A DNA stretch of 27,627 nt from a virus: IMG/VR virus record IMGVR_UViG_3300022890_000089, positions 1 through 27,627 of that record; one strand, 5' to 3'. Positions 5,573-20,749 of this stretch are shown here, one piece after another. Position 1 is the stretch's first letter; each line of letters opens with the position of its first letter. The notes under the pieces are model-generated. The model worked only from the letters and a program-made list of their open reading frames with translations, had not been told where the DNA came from and searched no databases. The translations under genes were made by a program, and so were the position numbers.

Positions 5573-5583
5573 ATTATTATATG

Positions 5584-5614
5584 TCTTTTTTCTTTATATT
5601 CTTTATTAAAGTAG
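5584..5614 (-). promoter_or_regulatory. Late-type promoter before the protease/capsid operon
   Basis: A 31-base element identical to 24627-24657. Its core reads TTTAATAAAGAATATAAAG on the minus strand. The palindromic CTTTAATAAAG lies just upstream of a TATA-like box, and the ATG at 5572 is about 25 bases further, consistent with a leaderless late transcript and an activator site. Confidence 0.6.
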
Positions 5615-5625
5615 GTTGTTTTGAA

Positions 5626-7881
5626 TTATAATGCTTCTTTTAATCTATCTTTCATTGATTTTGTTTGTAGCCCATCATCTAAAAAGAAAATTGCTTGATC
5701 TCTATCGTTAGGCATAAACGGTGGAACTAAACCGGAGTACTCTTTTCCTTTCATTTTTACACTAAATGTTTCGTTTATTCCTATTGATTTTTGCTTTGAT
5801 CCGTATTTTCTAAACATGGCCTTGCTGACTTCGCTAGTCCTTGCATCACTTACTATTGAAATATACTTCTTCATGTCCATGTTGGCCTTTTTTGCTGCTT
5901 CTAATGACCCAAAGTTCTCTGCTCTTGCTGTTTCTGTTCTTGCTATTGCATCTGCTCTATTATCAGCAACATCAAAAACTGATTTAACTCGTTCACTAAT
6001 CTTTCCTATTCCTTCGCCGTTCATTATTCCCATTCTTAATTGTTGTTTAAGTTTGTTCTCAATATCTGATTCCATTCCTTTTATGTTAGAAAATGTATTA
6101 TTTGATAAAAACTTTATTTGTTCTTCGTTTGGATTAACGTCTTGCTTTGTTGTTTTCTCCACACTTTTCATTCCAGACTCATATAAACTTTTAGTTATTG
6201 CATTGATATAGGGTCTTAATGAATCTAAATTTAAGAAGCTCTTAACCTTATCTATTACTGAGCTTAGCGATTTAATTTGTGTTAGTCTATCTTTTTTTGC
6301 CTCTAGTTTTAATGCTGCCAATATTTCTTTTTCTTTTTCTCTTAATAATCTTTTAAATGTGCCCATGACTTCATTTTCTTTTGGGGCTATTGGGCTACTT
6401 GTCATTAGAGCTTTTTGTTCTTTTTCTTTCTCTGCTTCTTTTTTCATACCTTCTTGATCTTCTTGTTCGTTTTGCCCTAATTTCGGATCACCGAACTTTT
6501 GAAATGCATTTGCCATGTTATCTGATTCGAAAGTATCTCCACCCTCTATTTCCTCTAAACCTTCCTCTCTTCTTAATTCGTTTCTAGTCCTTAGCTTAGT
6601 ATTGATCATCTTTTCATATAGCTCATATTTTCTAAATTCGTCTTCTATATCGTATGTATTAAATTCAAACTTTAATTCTCCACCAAAATCCCACTCACTT
6701 ATTATGTTATTATTGATAAAATATTCTATTGTTCTAAGCAATGGGAGTATAGACTTTCTTTTATTTATTTTGTTTTGTCCTGATTCTGTTGCCTTATTAG
6801 AGTTTTCTGTAAAACCTAGCTCACTTGGTGTTACTCCAAACATTGCCCATGCCAACTTACTAAACCATTGTTGAGACTCTAATAGTTGTAATTCCTGCGA
6901 ACTGAACTGAACATTAACAAAAGATGCATTTTCTGTATTTGTGATTGGTACTCTGTGGAAACTCTTTTTTAATAAACCTGATTGATTAACTTTCATTTGC
7001 ATCTCATTCCATCTGTCTCTGAATGCTTCCATTTCTCCTGCATCTGATCCTGCTAAATTGATAAAACCTCTAGGAATATTGTTGTCTTCAAAGTAATCTA
7101 AATTATACTCCGCAGAATAAAGAAGCGATTGGACTATCTCTTGTATATTTTCGACTGGTGCTCTTCCATATAATTGTTCTGTCTGGGGGTTCTTCTCAAA
7201 CCATACTATTTCCCTTCTTCCGAATGGGATAGGCCTGCTTGTTGTTATAAATCCGAATTGAAAATATGCTGATTGATCCCTTGCTTCAATTAAAGTCATT
7301 CCTTGGCCTTCAAAGTTTTGTTGACCTGTTTGCGGGTTGATTGTCATTCCAATGCTATCTGTAATTATATCCTCTCTGGAGCCATATCGTCCATGTATAT
7401 CCGGATTTTTTAAGAAAGAAGCACCATCTGCACATACTATTTCAACCATTCTGTCATGTTTATCGAACTCTTTAACCCATATCCCTGAGTCCATATCTAA
7501 TAAATCATTTAGCATTTGTCTTAATAAATATTCGAATGATTGATTGTTTGTATTGGGGTTTTCAAAAAAAGCTTCCACTTCTTCTATTTTAGAACTTAAA
7601 ACGTCACTTTGCTCTTTGTCTGAATCTTTTGGCTTAATAGACCAGTCAATAGAAACCACCTCATCTATTATAAGTTGTTTTGCCATTGCTATTTGTGCAG
7701 TTTTGCCTAATCTCCTTAATGTAATAACATCCTTGTATCTTGGTGTTCCGAAAGGCGGTTTAAATAAAAAATTTGGTAAAAGAACTTTATTGATTGCTCC
7801 CCTTGTGCTTTCATCTGCAAATACCACTCTAGGCGGGTTTGCCTTCTGTTCTGTTTTTTTGAAATAATCTAGTAATCCCAT
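5626..7881 (-). CDS. Portal protein fused to a MuF-like minor head protein
   Basis: 751 residues. Residues 1 to about 450 resemble a portal protein: a membrane-free helix/strand body, LDYFEDNNIPRGFI near 262, and FGVTPSELGFTENSNKA near 348, the conserved tail of the clip/wing region. Residues 470 to 560 form a charged linker. Residues 580 to 730 carry MuF (SPP1 gp7-like) features: ARTETARAENFG near 647, YISIVSDARTS near 673 and a final PPFMPNDRDQAIFF. The portal forms the DNA entry ring; MuF proteins act at the portal in assembly. A single polypeptide is less common than two genes. It lies between large terminase and protease as expected. Confidence 0.88.
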   Translation of the reverse strand: MGLLDYFKKTEQKANPPRVVFADESTRGAINKVLLPNFLFKPPFGTPRYKDVITLRRLGKTAQIAMAKQLIIDEVVSIDWSIKPKDSDKEQSDVLSSKIEEVEAFFENPNTNNQSFEYLLRQMLNDLLDMDSGIWVKEFDKHDRMVEIVCADGASFLKNPDIHGRYGSREDIITDSIGMTINPQTGQQNFEGQGMTLIEARDQSAYFQFGFITTSRPIPFGRREIVWFEKNPQTEQLYGRAPVENIQEIVQSLLYSAEYNLDYFEDNNIPRGFINLAGSDAGEMEAFRDRWNEMQMKVNQSGLLKKSFHRVPITNTENASFVNVQFSSQELQLLESQQWFSKLAWAMFGVTPSELGFTENSNKATESGQNKINKRKSILPLLRTIEYFINNNIISEWDFGGELKFEFNTYDIEDEFRKYELYEKMINTKLRTRNELRREEGLEEIEGGDTFESDNMANAFQKFGDPKLGQNEQEDQEGMKKEAEKEKEQKALMTSSPIAPKENEVMGTFKRLLREKEKEILAALKLEAKKDRLTQIKSLSSVIDKVKSFLNLDSLRPYINAITKSLYESGMKSVEKTTKQDVNPNEEQIKFLSNNTFSNIKGMESDIENKLKQQLRMGIMNGEGIGKISERVKSVFDVADNRADAIARTETARAENFGSLEAAKKANMDMKKYISIVSDARTSEVSKAMFRKYGSKQKSIGINETFSVKMKGKEYSGLVPPFMPNDRDQAIFFLDDGLQTKSMKDRLKEAL

Positions 7882-11506: not shown

Positions 11507-11683
11507 TTATTCATTTTTTAGTTCCTTTATTTTGTTTTTAATTAATGCACTTTCATCTATTATGTCTTTCATCTTTATTATTAAAACTTCATCTCCCGGT
11601 TCTATGCTTGATCTTCTTGGGATTCCTGCTAGTTTTTGTCCTGACTTCCCTATTTTGTATGCTTTCGCTGTTACTGTTTCCAT
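11507..11683 (-). CDS. AbrB/SpoVT-like DNA-binding protein
   Basis: 58 residues from ATG 11683. The pattern AKAYKIGKSGQKLAGIPRR followed by IEPGDEVLIIKM is the swapped-hairpin AbrB/MazE fold common in archaeal regulators and antitoxins. A short charged helix completes it. It is about 28 bases from an early-type TATA box, so probably leaderless, and directly precedes the methyltransferase gene. Likely a regulator of its own promoter or the late switch. No toxin partner is visible next to it. Confidence 0.75.
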   Translation of the reverse strand: METVTAKAYKIGKSGQKLAGIPRRSSIEPGDEVLIIKMKDIIDESALIKNKIKELKNE

Positions 11684-12247: not shown

Positions 12248-12514
12248 TTAATTTGAATAATAAAGTATCTTTATTTTATTGAGTAGTTTTCTTAATTTAT
12301 CGCCTTTGTTTGTCAGCTTTAATGAATATCCTCGGTCTTTGTTAGTTGTTATCTCTTTTAAAATTATCCCCTTTGTTTCCCATCGATTTATTATATGAAA
12401 CATATTTATATATGTTAATTTACAATATTTGGCCGCGGTCATCATATTTGGCCCCTTTTTGTGTATAAAATTTAATACATCAATGTTTCTTTCTTTTATT
12501 GTTCCTACATACAT
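12248..12514 (-). CDS. Winged-helix transcription regulator, MarR-like
   Basis: 88 residues. NIDVLNFIHKKGPNMMTAAKYCKLTYINMFHIINRWE forms helix-turn-helix, and GIILKEITTNKDRGYSLKLTNKG a beta wing ending in the typical LTxKG of MarR-like proteins. An early-type TATA lies about 37 bases upstream, leaving a leader of about 12 bases. It likely controls viral transcription; its target is unknown. Confidence 0.75.
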   Translation of the reverse strand: MYVGTIKERNIDVLNFIHKKGPNMMTAAKYCKLTYINMFHIINRWETKGIILKEITTNKDRGYSLKLTNKGDKLRKLLNKIKILYYSN

Positions 12515-16747: not shown

Positions 16748-17179
16748 TTAGTTTAGTTGTTCAATTAATTGTTTTAGTTGCTCTTTTTTATAAGATTTTA
16801 GATTAATTATAATACCTTCTGATTTAGCATTTCTTAAATCAGCACCACTTAAATCAGCATTTCTTAAATTAGCATTTCTTAAATCAGCATAACTTAAATT
16901 GGCATTTCTTAAATCAGCACCACTTAAATCAGCATTTCTTAAATTAGCATTTCTTAAATCAGCATAACTTAAATTGGCATTTCTTAAATCAGCACCACTT
17001 AAATCAGCATTTCTTAAATTAGCATTTCTTAAATCAGCATATCTTAAATTGGCATTTCTTAAATCAGCATATCTTAAAGAATATCCTTTATATTCAAAAA
17101 TTACTTTTTTTGAATCATATCTTGAATAAATCTTAATAGTTTTTTCTTCTATTTCTTGGCCACATTTATCACATTTCAT
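16748..17179 (-). CDS. Pentapeptide-repeat protein with an N-terminal zinc knuckle
   Basis: 143 residues. The start MKCDKCGQ is a CxxC knuckle. Residues about 35 to 118 are pentapeptide repeats ([20 protein letters not shown]), which fold into a square right-handed beta helix. A charged helix ends the protein ([14 protein letters not shown]). Such proteins can mimic DNA and bind topoisomerases, or serve as scaffolds; the role here is unknown. The repeat region is built from 75-bp tandem units almost identical in DNA. The ATG overlaps the preceding gene as ATGA. Confidence 0.8.
16833..17057 (-). repeat. Three 75-bp tandem repeats coding for pentapeptides
   Basis: Units start at 16833, 16908 and 16983. 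Units 1 and 2 are identical, unit 3 differs at one base. Each unit codes 25 residues, five pentapeptides, so expansion or loss keeps the frame. The near identity implies recent amplification. Confidence 0.95.
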
Positions 17180-19283: not shown

Positions 19284-19683
19284 TTCTTGGTTTAAGCGAA
19301 TTATCTTTTATCAACTCTTTTGCTCTTTTGTTCATTAATTCCAATTTCTTATCTTGTGGTAAAGCTTTCCATATATCCTCTATTTTTTTATAACATCTTG
19401 CTGCTGCTTTTGATCTTATTATTCTTATATGTGGAAGTTGATTATATATTTTTAGTTTTTCTATAACCTCTGGTCTTTGGCGATACTCTTTTCTATATAT
19501 CTTTAGTCTTTCTATAACATCTGGTCTTTTGTGATACTCTTTAATATATTGTTTAAACTTTTCAGAATTATTATATTTTTTACTATTTTTATTATTTGCA
19601 ATTATTCTACATATTTCACAGTACTTTACGCTATGGTGAACGTCTATTAATTCCTTTTCGCAAATTAAGCATTTTTTGTTCAT
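19267..19683 (-). CDS. Zinc-knuckle protein with RPxVIExLKIY repeats
   Basis: 138 residues. N-terminus CLICEKELIDVHHSVKYC then EICR gives a CxxC...H...CxxC zinc site. Two copies of YxKEYxxRPxVIExLKIY follow (about residues 46 to 80). A basic helical end may bind nucleic acid. Similar RPEV-repeat proteins are common in archaea and phages, related in places to HNH proteins, but no HNH core is visible. The ATG overlaps the coiled-coil gene stop (ATGA). Confidence 0.6.
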   Translation of the reverse strand: MNKKCLICEKELIDVHHSVKYCEICRIIANNKNSKKYNNSEKFKQYIKEYHKRPDVIERLKIYRKEYRQRPEVIEKLKIYNQLPHIRIIRSKAAARCYKKIEDIWKALPQDKKLELMNKRAKELIKDNSLKPRNERHD

Positions 19684-19976
19684 TCTAAGTCCCTTAATTC
19701 GTAATTTAATTCTTTTAATTCATCTGATAGTCTGACTAACTTGTCTGATCTTTCGGCTATTTGTTTTTTTAATTGCCTTCTTTGTTCTAATATTCCACTA
19801 ATTTTAATTTTTTGGAACTCTGGCTTATTAGAAAAATGTGTGACTAACGCTTGACGAACTTCGGCAGAAACTTTCATACTATCTCCATTTTTGATTAAAT
19901 ATTCCATGATTTGTCTTGCTAGTTCTCCTTTTTTTCCGAATGATATACTTTTACTTAATCTCAGTTTTTTTGTCAT
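19680..19976 (-). CDS. Helical/coiled-coil protein beside the repeat arrays
   Basis: 98 residues. FGKKGELARQIMEYLIKNGDSMKVSAEVRQAL could be a helix-turn-helix, followed by a coiled coil (RRQLKKQIAERSDKLVRLSDEL). The ATG is 15 bases from the AGTTAACAACT array, so this protein may be controlled by, or bind, the array. No family recognised. Confidence 0.6.
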   Translation of the reverse strand: MTKKLRLSKSISFGKKGELARQIMEYLIKNGDSMKVSAEVRQALVTHFSNKPEFQKIKISGILEQRRQLKKQIAERSDKLVRLSDELKELNYELRDLE

Positions 19977-19990
19977 TTTGCGTTTAAATT

Positions 19991-20014
19991 AGTTAACAAC
20001 TTTAGTTAACAACT
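19991..20014 (+). repeat. Paired 11-bp repeat array, left
   Basis: AGTTAACAACT occurs at 19991-20001 and 20004-20014, 13 bases apart. The same word in reverse orientation forms an identical pair at 20185-20208. A partial reverse copy (AGTTGTTAGC) lies at 20031-20040. Possible iterons or operators. Confidence 0.85.
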
Positions 20015-20164
20015 AATTTTTTTATTGTTTAGTTGTTAGCATTTTGTCAACATTTTATCTTTTTATTTATTTTTATTATTTTTTTAAGAGAATTACCTCT
20101 AATCAAATACCAAAAGTTCTTGTTTTTTTAACATTAGCAACCTATTTTTTAAATTTTAAGAGCA

Positions 20165-20398
20165 CTAAGATGTTTCTTGCGGATAGTTGTTAACTTTAGT
20201 TGTTAACTCCGTTTTTTGGTTTTGAGCGTTATTTTCTTTTACTAATTTTAATATTTCTGACTTGTTAATTAATATTTTATCACCAAACTTATCTATCATA
20301 ATTATAAAAGGGTCGTTAAATTTCAAAAAAACTCCAGAATAAACACCTTGCTGACTTTTACAAAAAATCCTCTTATTTTCAAATTCTTTCCATTCCAT
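20165..20398 (-). CDS. Sm-like (LSm/Hfq-type) small protein
   Basis: 77 residues. KRIFCKSQQGVYSGVFLKFNDPFIIMIDKFGDKILINKSEI follows the Sm fold: strand, G-rich turn, strand with D at FND, FIIMID, and a final hydrophobic strand. Such proteins bind U-rich RNA. The C-terminus is a polar tail. ATG is about 25 bases from an early-type TATA (leaderless). The right-hand repeat array lies in its last codons. The fold call is by pattern only. Confidence 0.55.
   Translation of the reverse strand: MEWKEFENKRIFCKSQQGVYSGVFLKFNDPFIIMIDKFGDKILINKSEILKLVKENNAQNQKTELTTKVNNYPQETS
20185..20208 (-). repeat. Paired 11-bp repeat array, right, inverted relative to the left
   Basis: AGTTGTTAACT, the reverse complement of AGTTAACAACT, occurs at 20185-20195 and 20198-20208 with the same 13-base period. 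The array lies within the 3' coding end of the Sm-like gene. Confidence 0.85.
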
Positions 20399-20418
20399 GA
20401 TTATTATAATTTTAACCT

Positions 20419-20435
20419 ATTTAAATATCTTTCTA
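20419..20435 (-). promoter_or_regulatory. Early-type promoter of the Sm-like gene
   Basis: The minus strand reads TAGAAAGATATTTAAAT. TAG at 20435-20433 is the stop of the ribbon-helix-helix gene. The ATG at 20398 is about 25 bases from the TATA centre. Confidence 0.6.
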
Positions 20436-20567
20436 ATCTGTAAGATATTGAACAACTGACATATCCATAAGTTCTTTTACTTTATCTTTATATGATATTC
20501 CTTCTGAAAGACACATCATTTTAAATGTCTGTTCCATTTTCTCGTCTAAATCTAATATTAAGTGCAT
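20433..20567 (-). CDS. Ribbon-helix-helix (CopG-like) regulator
   Basis: 44 residues: a strand (MHLILDLDEK), helix (MEQTFKMMCLSEG), turn and second helix (SYKDKVKELMDMSVVQYL), matching the size and hydrophobic pattern of ribbon-helix-helix proteins, which bind DNA as dimers through the strand. About 25 bases from an early-type TATA. Three ATATCRCT repeats lie just upstream of the promoter and could be its own operator. Confidence 0.7.
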   Translation of the reverse strand: MHLILDLDEKMEQTFKMMCLSEGISYKDKVKELMDMSVVQYLTD

Positions 20568-20588: not shown

Positions 20589-20604
20589 TTTATAAATGTA
20601 TCTA
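20589..20604 (-). promoter_or_regulatory. Early-type promoter of the ribbon-helix-helix gene
   Basis: The minus strand reads TAGATACATTTATAAA, one base off consensus. ATG 20567 is about 25 bases from the TATA centre. Confidence 0.65.
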
Positions 20605-20606
20605 TT

Positions 20607-20647
20607 ATATCGCTTATATAAATTATATTCATATCACTTATATCACT
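20607..20647 (-). promoter_or_regulatory. Operator-like ATATCRCT repeats
   Basis: Plus-strand ATATCGCT (20607-20614) and ATATCACT (20631-20638, 20640-20647) are direct repeats immediately upstream of the BRE of the ribbon-helix-helix promoter. The last two are nine bases apart, about one helix turn. Likely binding sites for that regulator or an activator. Confidence 0.4.
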
Positions 20648-20652
20648 ATAAC

Positions 20653-20677
20653 AAAAAAGCCGATCTAGGCAACCGGC
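20653..20677 (-). terminator. Hairpin-plus-T6 terminator after the tRNA-like gene
   Basis: The minus strand has GCCGG...TCGGC (five pairs counting G-U, nine-base loop, 20677-20659) followed by TTTTTT. It starts two bases after the tRNA-like discriminator and ends that transcript. Confidence 0.7.
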
Positions 20678-20678
20678 A

Positions 20679-20749
20679 TAATCGCGCCGGGAATTGAACC
20701 CGGAACTATAATCCACTTTGGATATATCGACACCTCGTCTTTCGCGATC
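20679..20749 (-). tRNA. tRNA-like gene, isotype unassigned
   Basis: 71 bases. Acceptor arms GATCGCG and CGCGATT pair over seven bases (one G-U), with discriminator A and no CCA. The T-arm CCGGG-TTCAATT-CCCGG is canonical. The D-arm is short (GAC-GAGGT-GTC, five-base loop). The next hairpin, ATCC-AAAGT-GGAT, has a five-base loop instead of seven and no U33, so no anticodon can be read. Either a very divergent or non-decoding tRNA, or a tRNA mimic. Placed after a membrane-protein gene and closed by its own terminator. Confidence 0.55.

Follow-up and report, generated by a model that had tools for sequence, protein, structure and literature searches.

Paired palindromic repeat arrays ahead of a small gene in an uncultivated tailed virus are predicted operators of a virus-encoded repressor

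The DNA analyzed here, whose full length is referred to as the window, is a 27,627-bp viral record that features terminase, portal and major capsid genes and carries nearly all of its genes on the minus strand. Two arrays of short palindromes flank an AT-rich segment ahead of a gene for a protein of 98 residues (19680-19976, minus strand), and we consider it probable, at roughly two chances in three, that they represent paired operators of a virus-encoded dimeric repressor that would control this gene. This reading is drawn from sequence comparison and is favored because one array is placed directly before the start codon, because the units have dyad symmetry, because both arrays are conserved in a divergent relative and because the neighboring genes are preceded by promoters of the archaeal type.

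The sequence AGTTAACAACT occurs at positions 19991-20001 and 20004-20014 of the plus strand, and its reverse complement resides at 20185-20195 and 20198-20208, in both cases with a period of 13 bases and exactly where the first-pass annotation had placed them. Each unit is an 11-bp palindrome of the type AGTT-NNN-AACT with the general form AGTTNNNAACT, and two such units separated by a gap of 2 bp make up an array of 24 bp, of which there are two in total, about 190 bases apart. The proximal array (19991-20014, minus strand) reads AGTTGTTAACT-AA-AGTTGTTAACT in the sense of the 98-residue protein gene and is situated 15-38 nt upstream of its ATG. The distal array (20185-20208, minus strand) reads AGTTAACAACT-AA-AGTTAACAACT in the same sense and is located, as had been noted before, inside the 3' end of a gene for an Sm-like protein (20165-20398, minus strand). 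The four units are the sole exact copies of AGTTNNNAACT in the 27.6-kb window, and the 24-bp double unit has no exact copy elsewhere in the record. No inverted repeat of 24 nt and comparable quality arose within 300 bp in 20 dinucleotide shuffles of the whole window, and not a single perfect 24-mer was found among 5000 shuffles of the 600-bp neighborhood. There is thus no doubt that the repeats exist, and they greatly exceed what chance would produce. Their outer arms are complementary at 22 of 24 positions, with the two TT spacers left unpaired. The earlier description as mirror-image arrays holds in so far as the arrays are indeed inverted, but the mirror symmetry is in part a by-product of the palindromic units. 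A degenerate reverse copy that had also been listed (TGCTAACAACT, 20031-20041, minus strand) does not stand out from chance matches, of which 16 are present at two mismatches where 15.4 are expected; it is not conserved in the relative and probably fortuitous. The AT-rich core between the arrays (20015-20184) was described correctly: it has a GC content of 21%, and just 1.8% of windows of the same size are equally low.

Scans of viral records and genome contigs yielded a single informative divergent relative, IMGVR_UViG_3300035698_006764 (L019/L038, L019 in the following), which is syntenic with the window over much of its length. Protein identities amount to 87% for the terminase, 89% for the capsid protein, 55% for the Sm-like protein, 60% for a ribbon-helix-helix protein and 38% for the 98-residue protein. 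Searches with the 98-residue, Sm-like, helix-turn-helix, terminase and capsid proteins returned as informative records L019/L038, L015, which is a 99%-identical strain of the window virus, and a fragment, L037, that lacks the region. A match in L005 was false and concerned a GGDEF-like protein. When IMG/VR was scanned for the double-unit pattern, 24 contigs emerged, L015 and L019 among them; in the others examined the pattern mostly lies inside open reading frames and in no case ahead of a related gene, which is about what chance would yield. The scans of genome contigs produced no finds, and no phage record carries a 98-residue protein of this kind.

In L019, the distal array aligns at 1879-1902 (GGGTATTAACTCAAGTTAATAACT) with 14 of 16 arm bases retained and the proximal array at 2063-2086 (AGTTATTAACTTGAGTTAATAACT) with all 16. 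Taken together, 30 of the 32 arm bases are retained as compared to 7 of the 16 spacer bases and 94 of the 152 bases (62%) in the remaining gap, so that, in this one relative, conservation of the arms exceeds the local background (Fisher p 1.6e-4 against the remaining gap and 2.6e-4 against the spacers). Within each virus the four units follow one sequence, AGTTAACAACT in the window and AGTTAWTAACT, with two arm changes in one unit, in L019. Such uniformity within a virus combined with a difference between viruses is as expected for sites that track one trans-acting protein. The distal array is read in codon phase 1 of the Sm-like open reading frame in the window and in phase 2 in L019, where the array itself provides the stop codon. 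As the array has been retained in spite of the different phase, it is the nucleic acid and not the peptide that is under selection, in agreement with the first-pass annotation, which had suggested that the array sequence was kept despite coding. The distance from the proximal array to the ATG is 14 nt in the window and 9 nt in L019. On these comparisons, conservation indicates that the array element is functional. A further conserved non-coding block, AACAAGAACTTTTGGTATTT, lies between the arrays (20105-20124, minus strand), is unique in the window and is possibly an activator site.

Promoters were scored with a matrix written from general knowledge. Both the Sm-like gene and the gene for the ribbon-helix-helix protein of 44 residues (20433-20567, minus strand) are preceded, in both viruses, by archaeal-type BRE/TATA boxes located 27-31 nt ahead of the ATG, such as tagaaacaTTTAAATA in L019. 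In the window, the Sm-like gene has its own promoter at about 20418-20425, and a strong TATA box is present at about 20589-20596 for the ribbon-helix-helix gene. These boxes point at a host that is probably an archaeon. For the 98-residue protein gene, a strong TATA box did not emerge from the same scoring. A weak TATA-like candidate (20070-20077, minus strand) is found in the AT-rich segment between the arrays, approximately 100 nt before the ATG, and at the aligned place L019 has TTTATAAA, 96 nt before its ATG; the AT-richness of the segment makes such a match weak, and a promoter between the arrays is weakly indicated. As a separate observation, a recurrent promoter of approximately the form TAGAAACA-TTTAAATA occurs about 27-40 nt before the starts at 11683, 12514 and 20398 (minus strand) and at 1697 in L019; it corresponds to an archaeal BRE/TATA consensus and likewise points to an archaeal host.

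How might such operators work? Each 11-bp AGTTNNNAACT palindrome would take one dimer, and two dimers would sit side by side on each array with a spacing of 13 bp. The start codon of the 98-residue protein gene would be separated from the promoter region by the proximal array, and the distal array would lie about 190 bp upstream at the end of the Sm-like gene, such that occupancy by the repressor would block transcription of the 98-residue protein gene and the genes behind it. The likeliest binder may be the 98-residue protein itself, which would then act as an autorepressor. Its structural model, which is of low confidence, has a disordered start, helices at residues 15-29 and 38-49 and a long coiled-coil helix at residues 52-89. 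From the succession of an SISF strand, a helix, a turn and a second helix we infer a ribbon-helix-helix-like N-terminus, and the coiled coil at the C-terminus could serve to join dimers. The protein has no profile match to the ribbon-helix-helix fold, also when hhalign was run against a ribbon-helix-helix profile, and neither Foldseek nor VIA-align returned a significant match for the model. Sequence searches of the PDB with 98-residue, Sm-like and ribbon-helix-helix profiles gave nothing useful.

The second candidate binder would be the 44-residue protein, which matches Pfam RHH_10 at an E value of 0.0012, below the curated cut-off. Two winged-helix candidates, encoded at 12248 and 18561, would be further potential binders. 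The ribbon-helix-helix gene is associated with a separate TGATAT/ATATCA array with a period of about 9 bp (20605-20647, minus strand) just upstream of its TATA box, which has a counterpart at 1428-1484 in L019 and is probably the gene's own operator. The region upstream of the same gene also harbors a tRNA-like element in both viruses (20672-20748, minus strand, in the window and 1351-1422 in L019). The L019 element scores as a tRNA (39.5 bits), with an anticodon helix of 8 bp, a loop of 3 nt and AAU as anticodon by position. Stems resembling the acceptor and T arms are kept in the window element, and a tRNA search of the window found none; since this element is recognized neither by ARAGORN nor by Rfam, it may be a decaying tRNA or a tRNA-like structure. 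L019 contains in addition an intact tRNA gene (5576-5646) with the anticodon UGC (Ala) by position and an Rfam score of 56.9 bits. Elsewhere in the window, the open reading frame at 16748-17179 contains near-identical in-frame repeats of the pentapeptide type (16824-17078) with a period of 15 bp and blocks that are about 95% identical.

A tighter block could possibly be achieved if the two arrays were bridged and the AT-rich promoter segment between them were looped. The array spacing is 194 bp in the window and 184 bp in L019, a difference of approximately one helical turn, a coincidence that has odds of roughly 1 in 5 by chance. The first-pass annotation had proposed looping operators that control the gene at 19976. 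Placement before the ATG, the dyads, conservation in L019 and the promoters all speak for operators, while DNA looping between the arrays is possible judging from their arrangement. The full picture, in which a tailed virus of archaea would use a small coiled-coil repressor to bridge two paired operators and loop out the repressor's own promoter on TBP/TFB machinery, is put forward tentatively and with more doubt than confidence. If true, it would amount to a lambda-like or gal-like repression loop with an operator pair that overlaps an Sm/Hfq-like gene.

The main rival to the operators considered so far is an RNA hairpin, because both arrays can also pair in a transcript. In the transcript of the Sm-like gene they would form a hairpin of 22-24 bp with a loop of about 170 nt just before the start codon of the 98-residue protein gene, which would control how the transcript is processed, degraded or translated, and the U-/A-rich loop might be bound by the Sm/Hfq-like protein. 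The product of the upstream gene does adopt an Sm/Hfq fold: its model has a pLDDT of about 90 over residues 11-50, and the best matches are Sm ring proteins and Hfq from M. jannaschii with an rmsd of 1.5 A. A gene for a protein of this fold is unusual in a virus, and this one has no Pfam or NCBIfam match and very weak PHROG matches. The RNA is predicted to be more stable than shuffled sequences, with z-scores of -3.8 for the window and -6.4 for L019, and pairing of the arrays closes both structures. In the alignment of L019 and the window, three spacer pairs are altered on both sides with pairing retained, and all three of these double changes lie within the palindromic units. Pairing at 16 of the 24 positions is, however, automatic for any two arrays of palindromic units, and RNA pairing therefore weighs little. 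The matching orientations of the units have a probability of about 1/16 by chance alone, the helix in the window barely extends past the arrays and leaves two spacer positions unpaired, and a hairpin does not require tandem 13-bp units with internal dyads. On balance, we regard a functional hairpin as unlikely.

A replication origin, in which a viral initiator would bind sites resembling iterons next to an AT-rich unwinding element, had likewise been suggested, and the AT-rich core flanked by repeated sites is the feature that recommends it. Low GC content is usual in promoter gaps, which counts against reading this segment as an origin, and instead of direct iterons the site comprises two pairs of short palindromes that adjoin a gene start. 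The cumulative GC skew, which had been named as a check, falls monotonically through the site with no switch at the arrays, a weak test given that the genes are co-oriented, and no initiator gene was recognized among the proteins scanned, where most small genes are unannotated. We found no positive evidence for iterons and consider an origin very improbable.

A partition site, also suggested at first pass and considered here as one bound by the 44-residue protein, has even less to recommend it. This protein has a weak match to Pfam ParG (E 0.013, below the cut-off) but matches the general ribbon-helix-helix model better, a distinct repeat array accompanies the gene that encodes it, and no ParA-type ATPase was recognized among the proteins scanned. 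Positive evidence for partitioning was not obtained, and the idea is hardly credible. Equally implausible is a site of recombination, a segment capable of inversion or a miniature transposable element whose ends carry inverted repeats, as might be imagined for a short non-coding segment bounded by near-perfect inverted repeats: no integrase or transposase was recognized nearby, and the repeats and the inner block are orthologously placed and in the same orientation in L019 (direct score 72, inverted score -20), which speaks against an invertible segment.

To our knowledge, only a small number of operator systems have been described in archaeal viruses. Those covered in a review stem from viruses and one plasmid-virus of the Sulfolobales (PMC5569661). 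The closest resemblance to the arrays is offered by F55 of SSV1, a ribbon-helix-helix repressor of an archaeal virus that binds two sites per promoter, each consisting of two tandem 11-nt repeats (PMC5569661, PMC9608457). Further points of likeness are autoregulation, which is predicted for the window virus, and the location of the F55 sites close to or directly at the start of transcription (PMC5569661, PMC9608457). The F55 consensus ATAGATAGAGT is non-palindromic, whereas the window has no tandem copies of it but the palindromic AGTTNNNAACT with a period of 13 bp, and unlike the F55 sites the pairs in the window flank a segment of about 170 bp. Moreover, the window virus is of the tailed type and unrelated to SSV1, and its binder is a candidate. 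As predicted operators, the arrays would work like the F55 system, yet they are not a member of it. SvtR from SIRV1 and AvtR from AFV6 are also ribbon-helix-helix regulators of archaeal viruses that act on imperfect inverted repeats, exert autorepression and spread from distal high-affinity sites to the promoter (PMC5569661). They differ in their longer and more degenerate consensus and in spreading along the DNA in contrast to the two discrete paired sites described here. The bacterial repression loops of AraC, Lac repressor and lambda CI likewise employ two operators around a promoter region, but the proteins are unrelated to those of the window. In the case of AraC, the operators are about 190-210 bp apart and helical phase is important (PMC7408454).

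The conserved site together with its two candidate binders makes up a testable regulatory switch in a tailed virus that is uncultivated and probably archaeal, and the arrays would allow DNA looping to be tested with archaeal transcription factors.
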